Shown: piece after piece, positions 950 through 54,077 of the stretch | Layout: each line of letters opens with the position of its first letter | How positions within the stretch are numbered: the stretch's first letter is position 1 | DNA from: Candidatus Parcubacteria bacterium | GTDB lineage: Bacteria; Patescibacteriota; Patescibacteriia; PEXW01 | DNA: 64,000 nucleotides | Direction: 5' to 3' | Assembly: GCA_003597955.1 (NCBI GenBank) | Contig: QZJU01000021.1 | Coordinates: 1 to 64,000 of the forward strand | Made by a program: the position numbers and the translations under genes | Notes under the pieces: generated by a model | Told to the model about the DNA's origin: nothing | What the model saw: the letters and a program-made list of their open reading frames with translations, nothing else | The model's database searches: none

Positions 950-978
950 ACCCTAACAAAAAACCCGCAGGCAGTCAA
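950..978 (-). promoter_or_regulatory. Promoter of the NTP-transferase-like gene
   Basis: Leftward -35 TTGACT (973-978), a 17-bp spacer and -10 TAGGGT (950-955). The -35 ends exactly where the CCCC border of inverted-repeat element A begins at 979. Confidence 0.65.
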
Positions 979-1083
979 CCCCGCACCACTTTCCGCATTA
1001 AGCCTTAAATTTAAGGCAAAGACATTTGCTCGGCCGAATATCTTTGCACCATTGTAAACGCTGCGCCGGAAAGTGGTGCGGGG
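979..1083. repeat. Inverted-repeat element A (105 bp)
   Basis: The terminal arms CCCCGCACCACTTTCC (979-994) and GGAAAGTGGTGCGGGG (1068-1083) are perfect 16-bp inverted repeats. An inner pair, AAAGACATT and AATATCTTT, matches at 8 of 9 positions. TCAA flanks both borders as a direct repeat. The left border touches the -35 box of the leftward gene. No coding capacity. Same family as elements B, C, D, E and F. Confidence 0.85.
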
Positions 1084-1099
1084 TCAACCCCCGTAACTA

Positions 1100-2027: not shown

Positions 2028-2056
2028 AGCCTAAAGGCATTGGAAAAGAATGTCAA
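2028..2056 (-). promoter_or_regulatory. Promoter of the acidic helical protein gene
   Basis: Leftward -35 TTGACA (2051-2056), a 17-bp spacer and -10 TAGGCT (2028-2033). The CCCC border of element B starts four bases beyond the -35 box. Confidence 0.7.
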
Positions 2057-2060
2057 TGAA

Positions 2061-2163
2061 CCCCGCACCACTTTCCCCAAAAACACCGCCTATATTAATA
2101 GATATTCATTCGGAGAAAATATCTTCAAACCAAATTCTCAATTGATTGGAAAGTGGTGCGGGG
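2061..2163. repeat. Inverted-repeat element B (103 bp)
   Basis: It has the same perfect 16-bp terminal arms as elements A and C, with a different interior. An inner perfect inverted repeat AGATATT/AATATCT sits near the centre. It lies between the rRNA terminator and the promoter of the leftward gene at 1145. Its borders lack the TCAA direct repeat seen at A, C, D and F. Confidence 0.85.
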
Positions 2164-2196: not shown

Positions 2197-2319
2197 CTAA
2201 TTATTTTTTGAAGTATAGAGTACTTGGCACCGGCCTACTCTCCCCCTGAAGGAGTACCATCAGCACTGACTGGCTTCCCGCCAGAGGCGGGTCCGCCTAT
2301 GTCGGAAACTTCTGAGTTC

Positions 2320-2490
2320 GCCCCGCACCATGAAAAAATTAAGCGTATAATACCTGGCACCGGCCTACTCTCCCCCTGAAGGAGTACCATCAGCACTGAC
2401 TGGCTTAACTTCTGAGTTCGGGATGGGATCAGGTGTGGCCCAGTCGTTTGGGGCACCAGGAATTATATTCTCAATTTTCAGGTGCGGGGC
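2320..2490 (-). repeat. Stem-bounded unit carrying the inner 5S
   Basis: The ends GCCCCGCACC (2320-2329) and GGTGCGGGGC (2481-2490) are perfect inverted repeats. Complementarity continues inward with gaps almost to the 5S termini, giving a long pre-5S processing-type stem. The outermost bases are the same CCCCGCACC that ends inverted-repeat elements A to D. The unit sits between the CATCCC and GAACTC segments of the outer 5S. Confidence 0.75.
2351..2460 (-). rRNA. rrf: 5S ribosomal RNA (inner, intact copy)
   Basis: About 110 nt. Read leftwards it begins TGGTGCCCCAAACGACTGG, contains the conserved CCGAACTCAGAAG and ends GGCCGGTGCCAGG, with a complementary terminal helix. It is the only uninterrupted 5S in the window and lies downstream of 23S in the same transcript. 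Ends are placed to within a few bases. Confidence 0.9.
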
Positions 2491-14139: not shown

Positions 14140-14243
14140 CCCCGCACCACTTTCCATTAAAAACACCCTTTAAATATGGGGGTATTTACAATAAACGAAC
14201 ATCTTTAGTAAAAAGCAAATCTAATTTGGAAAGTGGTGCGGGG
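14140..14243. repeat. Inverted-repeat element C (104 bp)
   Basis: Perfect 16-bp arms identical to elements A and B, with TCAA at both borders. The left border touches TTGACT (14134-14139), with a TACTTT box 18 bp beyond, but no leftward gene follows, so that promoter is an orphan. The right side leads into ssb. The stretch 13907-14139 has no gene. Confidence 0.85.
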
Positions 14244-14308
14244 TCAAGCAAATTTATGAATTTTTTTCTAAAATTAGCCATTTTTTACAATGAAAGGGGG
14301 TGCAAATT

Positions 14309-14719
14309 ATGAACTTAAACAAAGCTGTTTTGATGGGCAATTTAACGCATGATCCCAAGGTCAAGGCTTTAAGTGGCAAACAAAAAGTCGCCACTTTTTC
14401 GGTGGCAACTAATCGTGCTTGGCGGGATTACAAAACAAAGGCGACCAAAGAAGCCGTGGAATTCCACCCAATCGTTGCTTGGGGAAACTTGGCCAGCATC
14501 ATTGAAAAGTATTTGAAAAAAGGCGACCGAGTTTATGTGGAAGGCCGTTTGGCCACTCGCAAGTGGGAAGATAAAAATAAGTTGAAACATGAACGCACAG
14601 AAGTGGTTGCGCAAAACTTAATTATGTTGGGCTCCGCCCGGAAAGGCGCGAAGCCCCAAGCAGTCGCAAACGCGGTTGCGCCAGAAGAAGGCGCGCTGGA
14701 AGAAGTTCCGGTCGCCTAA
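14309..14719 (+). CDS. ssb: Single-stranded DNA-binding protein
   Basis: 136 residues, one OB fold (about 1-105): NLNKAVLMGNLTHDPKVK at the start, FSVATNRAW, FHPIVAWGNLASI and GDRVYVEGRL are standard SSB segments. The ATG at 14309 is preferred over GTG at 14300 because the ribosome site GAAAGGGGG lies just upstream. The C-terminal tail is short and ends EEVPVA, without the usual DDDIPF-like tip that recruits partners. Inferred role: coats single-stranded DNA in replication and repair. It lies downstream of element C. Confidence 0.95.
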   Translation: MNLNKAVLMGNLTHDPKVKALSGKQKVATFSVATNRAWRDYKTKATKEAVEFHPIVAWGNLASIIEKYLKKGDRVYVEGRLATRKWEDKNKLKHERTEVVAQNLIMLGSARKGAKPQAVANAVAPEEGALEEVPVA

Positions 14720-39393: not shown

Positions 39394-40320
39394 TCAGCTT
39401 TCATTAAGTTGAGTTATCAAGCTTGCGATAATTGGCGCTAAGGACAAGACTTGGATTTTGTCAAGGCGTTTTTCCCAAGGCAGGTAAATGGAATCAGTGA
39501 TGAAAACTTTGGTAATCGAAGGCATTCTTTTTAGTTTTTGAATGGCCCCGCCAGACAGAACGCCGTGGGTGGCCATAATTATCATTTCATCAGCCCCAGC
39601 CTTTTTAATTTCTTTTGCTGTCGAAATCAGAGTGCCAGCCGTGCTGATTTCATCGTCTCGGAAAATTACAATTTTTCCGTGCAGATCCTCTTGGATGCAA
39701 TTGGATTCCGCTAGGTCATGTTCAGGTCGTTTTTTAATCACCCGAACCAAAGATACGCCCAAGACATCAGCGAATTTCCGGGCCGTGGAAGTCCGACCGC
39801 GATCAGGAGTTAGCACAACGCATTTGGAAAGATCAGTGCCTTTCAGGGCTTCGGCAAAAAGTTGATTCGGGTCAATTACATAGGTTTGGGCCGGCTTATA
39901 GTAATCCAAGAGCACGGGGGCGTGCGGATCGCAGAGCACAATGTCAGTGGCCCCACGGGAAACCGTAATTTCGGCCATCATTTTAGCCATCATTGCTTCG
40001 CCGCCATCTTTATCCCGTTCCTGCCGACGGAAGCCCATAAACGGCATTATAACCACAAGTTTTTTGGGTTTTTGCCGTTCAATAATATCCATTAACGCCC
40101 ACAGTTCAATGTAATTGGTCGGTGCATAAGTTGGCGTGGATTGGACAATGAAGACATTTTTGCCACGGATAGTGGCATAACCCGGAATTCGGTACCAAGG
40201 TTCGTCATCGGCAAAAATCTCTTTGTCCAAGTCACCAATCTGTTGGCCGAGAAGTTCAGACACGGCCGAAGCGAGCTTATAATTCGCTTTACCGCTAAAA
40301 ACCAAAAAATTCTCTGACAC
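39394..40320 (-). CDS. prs: Ribose-phosphate pyrophosphokinase
   Basis: 308 residues from GTG with ribosome site TGGAGG. The two-domain PRPP synthase fold: N-terminal FLVFSGKANYKLASAVSELLG, MPFMGFRRQERD (about 95-107), LCDPHAPVLLDYY, and the PRPP-binding loop RDDEISTAGT (about 222-231). The catalytic flexible loop usually has KRR; here it is IKKRPEHD, an altered form seen in diverged homologues. Role: makes PRPP for nucleotides. Promoter -35 touches inverted-repeat element D. Confidence 0.92.
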   Translation of the reverse strand: MSENFLVFSGKANYKLASAVSELLGQQIGDLDKEIFADDEPWYRIPGYATIRGKNVFIVQSTPTYAPTNYIELWALMDIIERQKPKKLVVIMPFMGFRRQERDKDGGEAMMAKMMAEITVSRGATDIVLCDPHAPVLLDYYKPAQTYVIDPNQLFAEALKGTDLSKCVVLTPDRGRTSTARKFADVLGVSLVRVIKKRPEHDLAESNCIQEDLHGKIVIFRDDEISTAGTLISTAKEIKKAGADEMIIMATHGVLSGGAIQKLKRMPSITKVFITDSIYLPWEKRLDKIQVLSLAPIIASLITQLNES

Positions 40321-40368: not shown

Positions 40369-40398
40369 ATCTTAAGTTAAGGTGGGCGCGGCTGTCAA
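40369..40398 (-). promoter_or_regulatory. Promoter of prs
   Basis: Leftward -35 TTGACA (40393-40398), an 18-bp spacer and -10 TAAGAT (40369-40374). The CCCC border of element D begins at 40399. Confidence 0.7.
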
Positions 40399-40565
40399 CC
40401 CCGCACCGCTTTTTAAATGGGCGTCGTTTTAGCTGTGGCAAGCAGTATCGTTGTGAGTTTTTAGTTGTGGTTTTAAAAATTAACCAAGAACCACGCCCTA
40501 AAACGATACCGATATCTATACCCAAAACCTCTAGCCACAACCATTTATCGGAAAGTGGTGCGGGG
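40399..40565. repeat. Inverted-repeat element D (167 bp)
   Basis: Ends CCCCGCACCGCTTT and AAAGTGGTGCGGGG are inverted repeats with one mismatch, with TCAA at both borders. Inner arms CGTTTTAG/CTAAAACG and AAATGG/CCATTT make a nested structure. The interior is shared with element E, including CAACCATTTATCGGAAAG at 40538-40555. Confidence 0.85.
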
Positions 40566-46570: not shown

Positions 46571-47857
46571 ATGCCTACCCACAAAACTCAAGATTTATTT
46601 GATCAAAGATTGGAAAAAGAATTCGGACGCCACGCGCCCTTGGCCGACCGGATGCGGCCGGAAAAACTGGAGGATTTTTTCGGCCAAACGGAGATAATCG
46701 GCCAGGGCAAGCTGTTGCGCCAAGCCATTGAAAACGACGAAATTTTTTCCATAATTTTCTGGGGGCCGCCGGGCAGCGGCAAAACCACTTTAGCCAGGAT
46801 TATCGCCAAACTGACCAAGTCGCATTTTGAACAAATTTCGGCCGTAACTTCGGGCCTGGCGGATTTACGGGCGTTGGTCAAGCAGGCGCTGGAGAGGCGG
46901 AAGTTCCAGAATTTACGGACCATTCTTTTTGTGGATGAAATTCATCGCTGGAACAAAGCCCAGCAGGATTCATTTTTGCCTTATGTGGAAAACGGCACCA
47001 TTACTTTAATAGGCGCCACCACAGAAAACCCGTCTTTTGAAGTGATTTCGCCGCTGCTTTCCCGCGCCCGGGTTTTTGTTTTGGAAAGGCTGGGCGTTCC
47101 GGAATTATCCAGAATTGTGAAGCGCGCTTTATTGGATAAAGAAAGAGGTTTGGGCAAGGAAAAAATTAAGCTTGAGGCCAAGGGCATAGATGTTTTATTG
47201 GCCGGATCAAACGGCGATGCCCGGACTTTATTAAATGCTCTGGAAATCGCGGTCAAAGCCACAGCCAAAGACGCAAAAGGCGTTAAACATATTAAAACCC
47301 AGACCGTGGAAGAAGCTTTGCAGCACAAAGCTTTAATGTTCGATAAAAAAGGCGAAGAGCATTACAATGTGATTTCGGCTTTCATTAAATCCATGCGCGG
47401 GTCAGATCCGGACGCGAGCTTGTATTGGTTGAATCGTTTGGTGGAGGCCGGGGAAGATCCGGAATTCATTGCCCGGCGCATGGTGGTTTTTGCTTCGGAA
47501 GATGTGGGCTTGGCTGATCCAAATGCGCTTGCCGTGGCCGTGAATGTTTTTCAAGCCGTGAAGCTAATCGGCTATCCCGAATGCCAGATAAATTTGGCTC
47601 ACGGCGTGGTTTACTTGGCATTAACTCCGAAAAACAACACGGCCTATATGGGCTTAATGAACGCCAAGCAAGACGTGAAAGATACTTTAAATGAGCCCGT
47701 GTCTTTGCATTTGCGCAACGCGGTCACGGATTTGATGAAAGATTTGGGCTATCACAAAGGTTATAAATACAGCCATGATTATGATAAAGAGGAGGGTAAA
47801 CAGGAATATTTGCCAAAGAAATTAGTAGGTCGGAAGTATTTTTTTCCAAAAAAATGA
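46571..47857 (+). CDS. rarA: Replication-associated recombination protein A (RarA/MgsA)
   Basis: 428 residues from the ATG of MPTHKTQDLF. AAA+ ATPase: PLADRMRPEKLEDFFGQ, Walker A WGPPGSGKTT (about 63-72), Walker B ILFVDEIHRWNKAQQD (about 119-134), sensor GATTENPSFEV, then the family C-terminal region (YNVISAFIKSMRGSDPDASLYWL, HGVVYLALTPKNN). Role: clamp-loader-like ATPase acting at stalled forks with SSB. TATAAT ends nine bases before ATG. The stop overlaps the RAYT start by four bases. Confidence 0.95.
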   Translation: MPTHKTQDLFDQRLEKEFGRHAPLADRMRPEKLEDFFGQTEIIGQGKLLRQAIENDEIFSIIFWGPPGSGKTTLARIIAKLTKSHFEQISAVTSGLADLRALVKQALERRKFQNLRTILFVDEIHRWNKAQQDSFLPYVENGTITLIGATTENPSFEVISPLLSRARVFVLERLGVPELSRIVKRALLDKERGLGKEKIKLEAKGIDVLLAGSNGDARTLLNALEIAVKATAKDAKGVKHIKTQTVEEALQHKALMFDKKGEEHYNVISAFIKSMRGSDPDASLYWLNRLVEAGEDPEFIARRMVVFASEDVGLADPNALAVAVNVFQAVKLIGYPECQINLAHGVVYLALTPKNNTAYMGLMNAKQDVKDTLNEPVSLHLRNAVTDLMKDLGYHKGYKYSHDYDKEEGKQEYLPKKLVGRKYFFPKK

Positions 47858-48402
47858 AATTGCCGCGGTTTAACGAAGCAGGTTATGCGCATTTTGTTAC
47901 GTCTAAAACCTATAAAAGCCGAAAAGTTTTTGACAATAAAGAGTGTTGTGAAATTCTGGTTGAGGATTTGAACTTTTATGCAAAGAAGTTAAATTTTGAA
48001 ATTTTAGGTTATTGCGTGATGCCGGAACACCTTCATTTAATTGTGCAGTGGGATGCGGAGAAACATCCGAAATTAACAATTTCGAAAATAATGCAAGCGA
48101 TAAAAAACCATTCTGCAAAAGAAATCGCTTTTTATTTAAAAACGGGTAGGCGAAAGCCCTCGCTTTCGCCATATTCAAAAGACGCGAGCGAGGGCTCGCG
48201 TCTACCCGCGAACTATAAATGGCTTGATCGTGGTTTAGTCCATACTAATTCGCTTGTAAAAATCTGGCAAGCCTCATTCTACGACTTCAACATTTATTCG
48301 GAAAGAATTCTTAACCAAAAATACACCTACATTTATTACAACCCGGTCCGCGCGGGCTTGTGTGAAAAGCCCGAGGATTGGCCGTGGACTTCCATCAAAT
48401 AA
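47854..48402 (+). CDS. REP-associated tyrosine transposase (RAYT, Y1/HUH family)
   Basis: 182 residues. The HUH motif is PEHLHLIVQ (His at about 58 and 60). The family C-terminus YIYYNPVRAGLCEKPEDWPWTS is intact, and the catalytic Tyr is probably near residue 134-148. Residues about 97-117 (GRRKPSLSPYSKDASEGSRL) are an insert encoded by two inverted REP hairpins. Known: RAYTs are IS200-related single-copy transposases thought to mobilise REP palindromes. The ATG overlaps the rarA stop, so it is co-translated with a host gene. It looks intact. Confidence 0.9.
   Translation: MKLPRFNEAGYAHFVTSKTYKSRKVFDNKECCEILVEDLNFYAKKLNFEILGYCVMPEHLHLIVQWDAEKHPKLTISKIMQAIKNHSAKEIAFYLKTGRRKPSLSPYSKDASEGSRLPANYKWLDRGLVHTNSLVKIWQASFYDFNIYSERILNQKYTYIYYNPVRAGLCEKPEDWPWTSIK
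48144..48207. repeat. Inverted REP pair (BIME-like) inside the RAYT gene
   Basis: REP1 (48144-48170) is GGGTA then stem GGCGAAAG/CTTTCGCC with loop CCCTCG. REP2, on the other strand (48207-48181), is GGGTA then stem GACGCGAG/CTCGCGTC with the same loop. Differences between the stems are compensatory. GTAG beside the stem matches the known REP tetranucleotide. The spacer is 10 bases. Confidence 0.85.
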
Positions 48403-49553: not shown

Positions 49554-49655
49554 CCCCGTTAGAGTTTTTAACTTATTTTTCTAAGAAATAATAATATCTT
49601 TATCATCAAGATGTTAATATATTTAAAATTACGGGAATTTAAAACTCTAACGGGG
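49554..49655. repeat. Inverted-repeat element F (102 bp)
   Basis: Bounded by CCCC and GGGG like elements A to C but with different arms: CCCCGTTAGAGTTTT and AAAACTCTAACGGGG (perfect, 15 bp). Inner AATATCTT/AAGATGTT arms match at 7 of 8 positions. In reverse orientation both borders carry TCAA, one shifted by a base. The right border is two bases from the TTGACA of the rightward promoter. Confidence 0.85.
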
Positions 49656-49656
49656 A

Positions 49657-49685
49657 TTGACAGATGCTGGCCGATTTGTTAATGC
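49657..49685 (+). promoter_or_regulatory. Promoter of the 49704/49858 genes
   Basis: -35 TTGACA (49657-49662), 17-bp spacer, -10 TAATGC (49680-49685). Confidence 0.65.
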
Positions 49686-49703: not shown

Positions 49704-49865
49704 ATGAAAAAATTCTTCGGTCAAAACCGACTGCGTTCAAGCGGCATTTTAGCCGATTTAGCGCGGGCAATTACGCCTGAAGAAAACCTTCGGCTCTTAG
49801 GCTCCGGCCCGTTTGCGATAGAATTGGGAAGGAGGGAAAGAGAAGGAGAGCATAGTCATGTCTGA
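49704..49865 (+). CDS. Possible 53-residue leader protein overlapping the 49858 gene
   Basis: An ATG frame starting MKKFFGQNRLRSSG with a helical middle (ILADLARAITPEENLRLLG) and a charged end. Its TGA overlaps the ATG of the next gene by eight bases, and it begins about 12 bases after the predicted transcription start. It has no ribosome site and may be leaderless. Uncertain. Confidence 0.4.
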   Translation: MKKFFGQNRLRSSGILADLARAITPEENLRLLGSGPFAIELGRREREGEHSHV

Positions 49866-50691
49866 TTTAGTTGAAACCGTCGCGGTTAAGGCCAATTGTT
49901 GCAAATGCGACAACCCTAAAAATTTTTGGGTTTTTGGCAATTTAACCCAATGCGCAGTTGTCGCCAGCCAAAACAAATTAATTCTGCGGAAAGATTTTGG
50001 TAGAAGAATCGGTATTAATCATGCCGTAATGATTGAGTGTAAGAATTGCCATCGGCTGACCGTGCATTTGCCGGTTAGACAGAAAGATATTTGGAATTTT
50101 TCTTTGGTCGCACCATACAAAGACAATTGGAAGACGATTAAACCAAGAGGTTGGCGGAGAAATGTTCGTTTTATCTGGCCTGATGAAGAGTTTTTGGACA
50201 TTAGTAAGCGCGATCTCATGAATTGTATTGCAATCAAAATTTCCTTACCAAAACAGGCGTCATCATTTTGGACAATTCGGTTTTTGCACTCGCCCCGTAA
50301 TAATTTTCGACGGTCATATCTATGTGGCACAGCCTTCGATATGTTTAGTAGTTATATCAAGGGTGATTACAAAGAATTTAGAAATGGTTTTAGTGAGTAC
50401 AAAAACAGAGCTGCGGGTGAATTAATCGAAGATGTCCAGCTCGAATTGAATCGACTTCACAACCTTAAGCAAGAAAAGGAAGTGCTGTCGTTAGCGGTCG
50501 AGCGAGCCATTATTGCTCTGTATCAAGCCCGGCACATTTCAAAGTCCGTCAAACTGAAAGAAATTCGCGAAAATCTACAACAGGCCCTGACCCAAGTTGG
50601 CATGCCATTGCTCAAGCTGGAGGAGTCTGAACCAATTAAGAAGGCTGATGTACTTATCGCTGAAACTTCTGGTTCGGGCACTGGCGAATAG
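49858..50691 (+). CDS. Hypothetical zinc-ribbon-like protein
   Basis: 277 residues. CCKC (about 14-17) and CKNC (about 61-64) form a split CxxC pair that could bind zinc. A basic aromatic middle (KPRGWRRNVRFIWPDEEF) and a C-terminal helical region with coiled-coil character (about 195-250) follow. Ribosome site AAGGAGGG, then GAAGGAGAG nearer the ATG. No family recognised. Driven by the promoter beside element F and followed by a terminator. Confidence 0.65.
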   Translation: MSDLVETVAVKANCCKCDNPKNFWVFGNLTQCAVVASQNKLILRKDFGRRIGINHAVMIECKNCHRLTVHLPVRQKDIWNFSLVAPYKDNWKTIKPRGWRRNVRFIWPDEEFLDISKRDLMNCIAIKISLPKQASSFWTIRFLHSPRNNFRRSYLCGTAFDMFSSYIKGDYKEFRNGFSEYKNRAAGELIEDVQLELNRLHNLKQEKEVLSLAVERAIIALYQARHISKSVKLKEIRENLQQALTQVGMPLLKLEESEPIKKADVLIAETSGSGTGE

Positions 50692-52520: not shown

Positions 52521-52549
52521 GTCGTGGGTCTTACTTGACTCACGACTTG
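52521..52549. terminator. Bidirectional terminator
   Basis: The stem AGTCGTGGGTC with GACTCACGACT sits between the lipoprotein gene and the convergent ParB-like gene, with an A run on the left. Confidence 0.82.
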
Positions 52550-53820
52550 TTTAATGATGAGCGTTTAAGTTTTGAATGGTGATTCTCGAATTTGGGTAGA
52601 GCAGCGAGCAGTTGCTGCGTGATGGCATCGGCTTTGAAAATCTGTTTTTGGGCCTTTTGCCACGATTTTTGTTTTAGAATTTTTTGCAAATGGCCGTGCA
52701 AAATTTCCAATTGTGCGATGAGCGCTTCAAAAACCCGGAGCGGGCTTCTTTCGGAAAAAGGCGAATCCGGTAAGCCCAGCAGGCCTTGTTGAAAAAGCTT
52801 GATAACATTCCGGATATAGTGCAGTTCCACCCACAGCGCGCGGATGCAGTTTTTTTCAACCGTGGCGCGGATTCGGGCTTTTTGTCGGGCCTTCAATTGT
52901 TCGGCCTCGAATATTCCCAAAAGTTCAATCTGACCGGAGTTCAGGTTTCGCAAATGCTTGCTGACCAGTCCGTGGAAATCGGTCACTTTGTAGTTTTTCA
53001 CTAAGGCGTTTTTAAACCACCAACTTTTGATTTGCGCCAGCGTTTCTCCGTTTTGTTGCAACCGGGCCAGCTCAATCGCAATGCCATAGGGGATTAAGCC
53101 CGTTTTGACCGCCCGCTGTATGGAAGCGGGCAACCGGCAGTAACGTAAAGCGTTGCTGACAGTTTGGGGACTGCGGCCCACCTGCAAGGCAAAATGTTTG
53201 AGCGTATAAGTGGTGTTGATGCCTTTAATCAGTCGAAAAAGCATATCGTAAACATAAGCTTCGTCCTCGGGCGGAATGGCCATATGCGTGTTTTCCGAAA
53301 GCTGCAAAAACAAAGCGGGCAAAGCGGAAATGCCTCGACACAGGTTAATCCGGATTTTTTCTTTTCGAAAATGTTTCCGAAAGCACTCGCCCGGCTTAAG
53401 CTTAAAGTTGGTTTCCCGGCAAACTTCACAGCCGGTTTCCCACAAGTATTTGCATGCCCGCAAGCGCCTTTCTCCAGCCAGCAAAACATAGTAGCGATTT
53501 CGGCCTTTTATGGTTTGGGATCGAAATTGCTTGAGGCGAAACCGGGTGCCCCACAACTGGTTAATGGTTCTTAAGTACTGCCAAAAGCCATTTTCGGTGA
53601 ATTCCGCGATGGTTGGCGGATGCAAAAGGCCTTTTTGGGCTAAGTCATTGCCCAGTTCGGGAATATTTTCGAATTTTTGCCTGGGTTGCGGCAGCACGAT
53701 GATCGAAAAAATCTCAATTTCGCTGGGAATATATTTATAGGGCTGGGAGCCGTTGCCCAAAAGATTCGCGAAAGCGTCCAACCGGTTTGGGGTTTTTGAG
53801 GTGGGCGGGATTTTCGCCAA
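52540..53820 (-). CDS. ParB/Spo0J-like DNA-binding protein
   Basis: 426 residues from TTG with ribosome site AAGGAGG. ParB N-terminal domain (about 35-175): VLPQPRQKFENIPELGNDLAQKGLLHPP and the nucleotide-box region LLAGERRLRACKYL (about 112-125), then LQLSENTHMAIPPEDEA. A KorB/ParB helix-turn-helix follows at about 210-255 (HFALQVGRSPQTVSNALRYCRLP). The C-terminal half (about 290-426) is a long helical region. No parA neighbour. Large inserts in the N-domain (CEVCRETNFKLKPGECF) are unusual. Promoter beside element E. It may be a specialised regulator rather than the chromosome ParB. Confidence 0.8.
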   Translation of the reverse strand: MAKIPPTSKTPNRLDAFANLLGNGSQPYKYIPSEIEIFSIIVLPQPRQKFENIPELGNDLAQKGLLHPPTIAEFTENGFWQYLRTINQLWGTRFRLKQFRSQTIKGRNRYYVLLAGERRLRACKYLWETGCEVCRETNFKLKPGECFRKHFRKEKIRINLCRGISALPALFLQLSENTHMAIPPEDEAYVYDMLFRLIKGINTTYTLKHFALQVGRSPQTVSNALRYCRLPASIQRAVKTGLIPYGIAIELARLQQNGETLAQIKSWWFKNALVKNYKVTDFHGLVSKHLRNLNSGQIELLGIFEAEQLKARQKARIRATVEKNCIRALWVELHYIRNVIKLFQQGLLGLPDSPFSERSPLRVFEALIAQLEILHGHLQKILKQKSWQKAQKQIFKADAITQQLLAALPKFENHHSKLKRSSLNKS

Positions 53821-53893: not shown

Positions 53894-54026
53894 CCCCGGA
53901 TTCCTTTTAAAAGAAGGCGTCGTTTTGGTTGTGGTTAAAGCTTAATTAAAAACTATACCCTTAAAACGGTACCGATATCAATACCTAAGACCTCTAACCT
54001 CAACCATTTATCGGAAAGGGCGTGGG
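53894..54026. repeat. Inverted-repeat element E (133 bp, diverged ends)
   Basis: The interior matches element D: GGCGTCGTTTT, AAAACG then TACCGATATC, ACCTCTA and CAACCATTTATCGGAAAG (54001-54018). The left end is CCCCGGATTCC and the right end GGAAAGGGCGTGGG, so the terminal repeats have decayed. GTCAA precedes the left border. Confidence 0.75.
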
Positions 54027-54077
54027 TTAAGAAAATTCCAGCTGTTTTTTTGCAAAAAATGTGCTAGGTTTTTACAT

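Follow-up and report, generated by a model that had tools for sequence, protein, structure and literature searches.

A probably mobile family of short inverted-repeat elements at TTNA sites in a Kerfeldbacteria-like patescibacterium and its relatives

Inverted-repeat elements of the window and the host genome

The window (64,000 nt of contig QZJU01000021.1) belongs to a genome of ~990 kb in 21 contigs from a Kerfeldbacteria-like patescibacterium, called G000 here. Element A (979..1083, minus strand) was found to be 105 bp long with perfect 16-bp terminal inverted repeats, and it is framed by a TCAA direct repeat at 975..978 and its twin at 1084..1087. A promoter-like site adjoins it (950..978, minus strand), consisting of TTGACT (978-973), 17 bp and TAGGGT (955-950), upstream of an NTP transferase gene at 130-912. 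Element B (2061..2163, minus strand, 103 bp) likewise has perfect arms, with minus-strand borders of TTTA and TTCA. Its promoter-like site (2028..2056, minus strand; TTGACA at 2056-2051, 17 bp, TAGGCT at 2033-2028) is located upstream of a gene at 1145-1993, the TTGAC box being 4 bases off the border. Element C (14140..14243, minus strand, 104 bp) has perfect arms and TCAA at both borders; it is situated upstream of ssb (14300-14719), yet its TTGAC faces away from that gene. The perfect 16-bp arms of A, B and C read CCCCGCACCACTTTCC and GGAAAGTGGTGCGGGG.

Element D (40399..40565, minus strand) is of a 167-bp subtype with the same arms (three mismatches in the left one) and TCAA at both borders, and its promoter-like site (40369..40398, minus strand; TTGACA at 40398-40393, 18 bp, TAAGAT) precedes a ribose-phosphate pyrophosphokinase gene at 39394-40320. 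Element F (53894..54028, minus strand), upstream of a ParB-like gene at 52540-53820, is a degenerate relative of D, with which it has GGCGTCGTTTT and ATTTATCGGAAAG stretches in common; it begins with CCCC after a left border of TCAA and has no intact right arm. Element E (49554..49655, plus strand, 102 bp) also has the form of an inverted repeat, but its arms differ (CCCCGTTAGAG and CTCTAACGGGG) and by arm sequence it is not a member of the family; a promoter-like site (49657..49685, plus strand; TTGACA-17-TAATGC) lies between it and an ORF at 49858-50691. No known RNA family (Rfam) was matched at the elements within the window.

An earlier, sequence-only reading had described all six as inverted repeats running from CCCC to GGGG, which is exact for A, B and C and true of D as the longer subtype; E departs from it in its arms and F in the missing GGGG end. 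The lengths which it assigned to A, B, C and F (105, 103, 104, and 102 bp) were recovered for the first three, F being about 135 bp. TCAA at both borders, reported for A, C, D and F, is exact in A, C and D, but the right border of F is GGGTTAAG. The outward-reading TTGAC placed 0–4 bases from one border was confirmed throughout (at 0 in A, C, D and F, 4 in B and 1 in E).

The longer type (131–167 bp) was seen at window positions 40399-40565 and 53894-54028 and also at C6:25168-25298, C7:7570 and L095:8249-8406, with arms that are the same or decayed and an interior of its own whose stretches are related (e.g., GGTTGTGG and GTATCGTTTT). The second arm family, CCCCGTTAGAG, was observed at window 49554-49655, L110:1962-2040 and L095:15180-15260, two of these being adjoined by TTGAC. 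One element in L095 has one arm from each arm family, which suggests recombination or a shared recognition of the CCCC/GGGG ends. At window 2224-2340, part of the 5S rRNA gene was seen to be duplicated (the intact copy is at 2352-2460); the edge of this partial copy has CCCCGCACCA, the same ten bases with which the element arm begins.

Sampling of G000 comprised 707 kb of stretches together with targeted loci, and the scans for duplications, −10 hexamers and multi-copy transposases reported below cover these 707 kb, about 71% of the genome. Perfect 16-bp arm pairs occur 13 times in G000 and single arms with up to two mismatches 69 times, the pattern read backwards giving 0 in both cases. In the 64-kb window, eight arm matches (up to three mismatches) were found, with 0.74 expected from shuffles and a largest shuffled count of 3. 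In total, G000 has about 36–37 elements, mostly of 101–111 bp plus the longer subtype.

In the orientation that puts TTGAC at the right-hand border, the usual form of a copy is TTGA-CCCCGCACCACTTTCC ... GGAAAGTGGTGCGGGG-TTGAC. The arm pattern across the family is CCC[CA]GCACCACTTT, the conserved 10-bp core being GCACCACTTT. Interiors within G000 are variable apart from a conserved centre (GATATTTGCC..G.TRAATATC), and in other genera the arms and the length persist with an altogether different interior. The interior has a weak folding advantage over shuffled sequence (mean z −0.83). A fold common to the interiors of different copies was rejected, as RNAalifold consensus folding supported the 17-bp arm stem alone. 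In size and structure, with 101–111 bp (131–167 bp in the subtype), 16-bp arms and no transposase gene, the elements agree with the definition of miniature inverted-repeat transposable elements (MITEs; 50–500 bp, terminal inverted repeats, no transposase gene).

Target duplication, promoters and apparent turnover between genomes

Exact 4-bp direct repeats (TTNA or TNAA) flanking 14-bp inverted arms were scanned for, with the reversed sequence as control. The scan of 707 kb of G000 yielded 22, that of G001, a same-genus relative (Kerfeldbacteria) used for the comparison of orthologous sites, yielded 11, and the reversed sequence gave none. The two flanks covary, TTGA being paired with TTGAC and TTTA with TTTAC. 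Outside Kerfeldbacteria, an exact 4-bp repeat flanks 18 of 63 elements (2.2 expected) and a 5-bp repeat one; repeats of other lengths show hardly any excess or none. Target-site duplication of the kind that characterizes MITEs is therefore a feature of the family. At some copies, near-identical ones included, the repeats are imperfect (TTAA/TTGAC and TAAA/TTGAC), an observation which counts against the explanation favoured below.

Near-identical copies were found in opposite orientations to TTGAC (C4:36043 and C17:81894; C6:71621 and C16:45802), so the TTGAC comes from the target. The insertion rule is a TTNA(C) target (TTGA, TTTA or TTCA, usually followed by C) and not the −35 box.

The association with −35 boxes is nevertheless real and larger than the intergenic TTGAC content explains. 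A −10-like hexamer at 16–18 bp follows 14 of the 20 TTGAC-flanked copies outside pilin genes, compared with 84 of 322 other intergenic TTGACs (Fisher p = 9e-5) and 5% of those in coding sequence. As the promoter fraction (70%) exceeds what TTGAC composition predicts, an additional factor is required, be it selection against copies at other sites or an attraction of the element to promoters. Copies at TTTA sites have no such promoter (C1:5568, C8:25679, C14:8007, and C17:24326), and copies also occur within prepilin genes, behind stop codons and, in other genera, in RNase P RNA.

Several sites filled in G000 are empty in G001, namely C20:9291, C5:10656, C4:66671, C16:29620, C17:25057, C17:24326 and C14:8007. 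At C17:25057 the empty site of G001 reads AAAGTCAAG and the filled one of G000 reads AAAGTCAA, the element and TCAAG; at C16:29620 the empty promoter is CAGATTTGACGAAACTTTCGGGTTCTGTTATACT and the filled one is the element followed by TTTGACGAAAAATTCCGGTTCTGTTATACT. In the reverse direction, the G001 copies L091 and L140 are located at promoters that are bare in G000. Both comparisons indicate insertion beside pre-existing −35 boxes, and presence/absence variation at orthologous sites, a further mark of a MITE, is thereby observed.

Both genomes are filled at C16:45802 (the rplU promoter), C12:2687, C6:46129 and the pilin site C16:8450; the counterpart of C6:24412 is degenerate. At the shared non-pilin sites, cross-genome similarity is 0.42–0.57 (the mean of any cross-genome pair being 0.52) vs. 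0.63–0.96 to copies of the same genome. Vertical descent is thus unsupported at the shared promoter sites, the copies being closer to their own-genome relatives. The exception is the pilin pair C16:8450 / L124, the most similar of all cross-genome pairs. These similarities point to turnover at promoters and to vertical inheritance at the pilin gene. That four of the comparable orthologous sites are filled in both genomes weighs against the explanation favoured below; the non-sister copies at these sites, the pilin gene excepted, could reflect repeated insertion or homogenisation.

The sequence-only reading had proposed a non-autonomous mobile element which duplicates TTGA and leaves the −35 hexamer intact, and this is borne out by the 4-bp duplications, the −10 enrichment and the empty and filled promoters, whose comparison it had suggested and which were found in both directions. 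Its statement that the element specifically occupies −35 sites was too narrow, given the TTNA(C) target and the copies at TTTA sites without a promoter, in prepilin genes and in RNase P RNA. The wider search that it called for yielded the additional copies in G000 and the related elements in many Patescibacteria described below.

Copies in prepilin and RNase P RNA genes and wider occurrence

In prepilin genes at C16:3459-8554, which adjoin a prepilin peptidase-like gene, and at C20:40309, the end of the element is the exact start of FTLIE (or FTFIE, FTLVE). The right arm is read there as AAA AGT GGT GCG GGG (K-S-G-A-G) and is followed by TTT ACT (F-T). The same element-then-FT layout was found in G001, in G003 and in other Patescibacteria (G024, L213, L257, L263, and L282), and in most of these prepilins the N_methyl motif begins where the element ends. 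Border codons are matched in pairs (TTCA/TTCA or TTTA/TTTA) in several prepilin genes. One G003 protein reads MRRSGFT/PHHF...MKSGAGFT/LIEV, which to judge from its sequence is an ordinary prepilin leader whose F-T codons were entered by an element that is now translated in the same frame. Prepilin peptidase would be predicted to cleave at the site rebuilt by the element. The prepilin copies across lineages may represent many independent events or few old ones. Among the pilin genes of C16:2500-9500 (L054), which have a leader element, two also have an element right after the stop codon (C16:4411 and C16:5864), and the mature coding region of these two sits between two elements.

In Kaiserbacteria CSSed11_315, three copies (L246:7411-7826) interrupt an apparent RNase P RNA gene, as read by sequence. 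One copy at L287:4496-4601 overlaps an RNase P class A match (E = 1e-25, below the gathering score of the family). The L246 and L287 copies adjoin the conserved GAGGAAAGTCC region.

The strict arm pattern was found in 3 of 95 relatives and the core pattern in 4 of 237 class members. Core matches in a species-wide collection amount to at least 112 stretches, and among the matches listed most are from Patescibacteria, in many of which related elements are present. Other genomes (L212, L218, L222, L205 and similar, from Actinomyces, Arthrobacter and a Bacteroidetes genome) have inverted repeats of ~100 bp with the GCACCACTTT core and other outer ends, which in Actinomyces and the Bacteroidetes genome are multi-copy. 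The Actinomyces and Bacteroidetes matches were rejected as members, since they share the 10-bp core and differ in their ends. Viral carriage was also rejected, the one viral match being poor and devoid of CCC ends. No earlier description of such elements in Patescibacteria was found in the open-access texts searched.

Nature of the element and its possible mobilising enzyme

Elements derived from IS200/IS605 insert next to short AT-rich sequences, of which TTGAC is an example. Unlike these, the elements described here have free orientation to TTGAC, flanks that covary as a duplication and arms that are identical inverted repeats; the target motif in fixed orientation without duplication was not found. 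Insertion of the IS200/IS605 type was rejected in view of the opposite orientations of near-identical copies and the covarying flanks. Most described bacterial repeat elements of the MITE kind have TA at their ends, unlike those described here. The Correia elements of Neisseria are MITEs of ~105–155 bp that are located near genes and affect transcription (PMC2229807, PMC10969869), but their promoters are internal, whereas here the −35 box lies outside the element and is the duplicated target.

In behaviour, the nearest known system is the Rickettsia palindromic element (RPE), a long stem-loop of 105–146 bp with terminal inverted repeats whose insertions lie between genes, in RNase P RNA and, in frame, within protein genes (PMC2229807). 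The prepilin leaders and RNase P RNA copies are insertions of the same two kinds. The sequences differ, as one of the two ends of an R. conorii RPE is CGTC (PMC3733652); the arms here are CCC[CA]GCACCACTTT and are not a CGTC-tagged palindrome. The Patescibacteria elements also differ in their fixed 4-bp TTNA duplication, their preference for −35 boxes and their use as prepilin leaders in several lineages. REPINs, which are associated with REP sequences and RAYT transposases, resemble the elements in having inverted conserved 16-mer ends around a hairpin-forming spacer that is kept in length and not in sequence (PMC3116915), and most host genomes of the Patescibacteria element have Y1_Tnp genes. 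In a REPIN each end is a REP (a small palindrome with a GTAG tag) and REP copies flank the cognate RAYT gene. The elements here have no GTAG tag, their arm is not a palindrome and they do not flank Y1 genes, and they have a target duplication and copies inside genes. By structure, the features of a MITE were all found except a known parent (PMC10969869).

The copies probably represent a mobile element of the MITE or palindromic-element type that is non-autonomous and whose TTNA duplication rebuilds the site entered. Two readings without mobility were weighed against this. That the element is a host regulatory module, with arms bound by a regulator and kept at chosen promoters, would agree with the strong −35 association and with the presence of the element in both Kerfeldbacteria genomes at the rplU promoter (C16:45802), C12:2687 and C6:46129. 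It is considered unlikely, however, in view of the many orthologous promoters that are filled in one genome and empty in the other, the shared non-pilin copies that are nearer to own-genome copies (0.63–0.96) than to each other (0.42–0.57), and the further copies that occupy pilin genes, follow stop codons or, elsewhere, lie in RNase P RNA. Individual copies may act as regulatory modules, which is not needed to explain the family. A set of transcription terminators or attenuators resembling transposons is highly improbable: the stems are strong (16–17 bp) and some directly follow a stop codon (C16:45802 and C16:4411), but no T run follows the stem, direct repeats stand at both borders and copies occur inside open reading frames.

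For the mobile element, the inverted repeats, fixed 4-bp duplication and free orientation suggest cut-and-paste-like integration by an enzyme acting on the identical ends. In G001, the targeted loci and 707 kb of G000, no pair of arms 200–5000 bp apart encloses a transposase, so that an autonomous parent with the same ends was not found within the searched sequence of the genome or its relatives. The term MITE-like is used in view of the extent of this search and because an element with other ends could mobilise the copies in trans. No clear fit was obtained with any of the transposase families tested, which counts against the favoured explanation. No multi-copy transposase genes were found in 707 kb of stretches of G000, and its sequence gave no match to rve, DDE_Tnp_1 or DDE_Tnp_1_4. 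An IS481-like gene of G001 (L144) was rejected as helper, as it belongs to rve, a family missing from G000. A candidate helper in the window is a Y1_Tnp gene (PF01797, RAYT/IS200-like; 47854..48402, plus strand), one of three in G000, which has no flanking arms. Of these three genes, two were seen to have unrelated GC-rich palindromes inside the reading frame (window 48143-48208 and L063:2478-2600).

Two proposals on the enzyme, both of them sub-hypotheses within the mobile-element reading, carry similar weight. The elements could be MITEs derived from an ordinary DDE-type insertion sequence, the autonomous copy having been lost, being rare or belonging to a family outside those searched. This is a tenable proposal, somewhat short of an even chance. 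In its favour are the terminal inverted repeats, the short target duplication of fixed length (4 bp) and the free orientation, which together form the classical signature of DDE enzymes; against it, three large DDE families are absent from G000 despite about 36 copies, near-identical ones included, and no transposase was found between long-spaced arms. The elements could also be REPIN-like and moved by a Y1 (HUH, RAYT/TIRYT) transposase whose gene lies at another place in the genome and which acts on a single-stranded hairpin, with insertion after TTNAC, a proposal that is given slightly less credence. REPIN anatomy is matched in the conserved 16-mer ends and the length-conserved, hairpin-capable spacer (PMC3116915), and TIR families tied to RAYT-like genes have been described (PMC3733652). 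G000 has three Y1_Tnp genes alongside its lack of rve, DDE_Tnp_1 and DDE_Tnp_1_4 matches, and Y1_Tnp was found in 10 of the 12 genomes with the element vs. 132 of 237 (56%) in the class. However, it is missing from the element-bearing G024 and G249, and arms beside Y1 genes do not exceed chance (an element lies within 2 of 10 loci and flanks the gene in neither). The covarying TTGA..TTGAC and TTTA..TTTAC flanks and free orientation are also unlike duplication-free IS200/IS605-type insertion, and the arm has no GTAG tag and is not itself a small palindrome.

Whichever enzyme moves the element, a transposase acting in trans would recognise the identical arms, the element would be joined in either orientation into the asymmetric TTNAC site, and a 4-bp stagger would duplicate TTNA. 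The original C would then stand behind the duplicate TTNA, so that entry into a −35 hexamer would leave an intact TTGAC at the edge of the element, and the promoter would survive with its upstream DNA swapped for the element. Where the F-T codons (TTTAC/TTCAC) of the prepilin GFTLIE motif are entered, FTLIE would stay intact and the right arm, in frame as K-S-G-A-G, would rebuild the prepilin peptidase site. As the entered site is rebuilt by the target duplication, most G000 copies would survive at −35 boxes and a few would be kept as prepilin leaders. A broader picture, on which we are evenly divided, is of a Patescibacteria-wide palindromic mobile family with a self-neutral TTNA(C) rule, whose arm supplies a functional prepilin cleavage site and which has repeatedly become a pilin leader and the upstream border of promoters.

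The genomes of Patescibacteria are tiny and gene-dense, and insertions in them should usually be harmful. If the proposed mechanism is true, a site-restoring duplication would explain how a mobile repeat persists in such genomes. The pairs of empty and filled promoters offer a clean system for measuring the effect of an upstream insertion and for finding the transposase. Through the prepilin copies, mobile DNA is connected with the N-terminal ends of type IV pilins, and these pilins may serve host contact in these bacteria.
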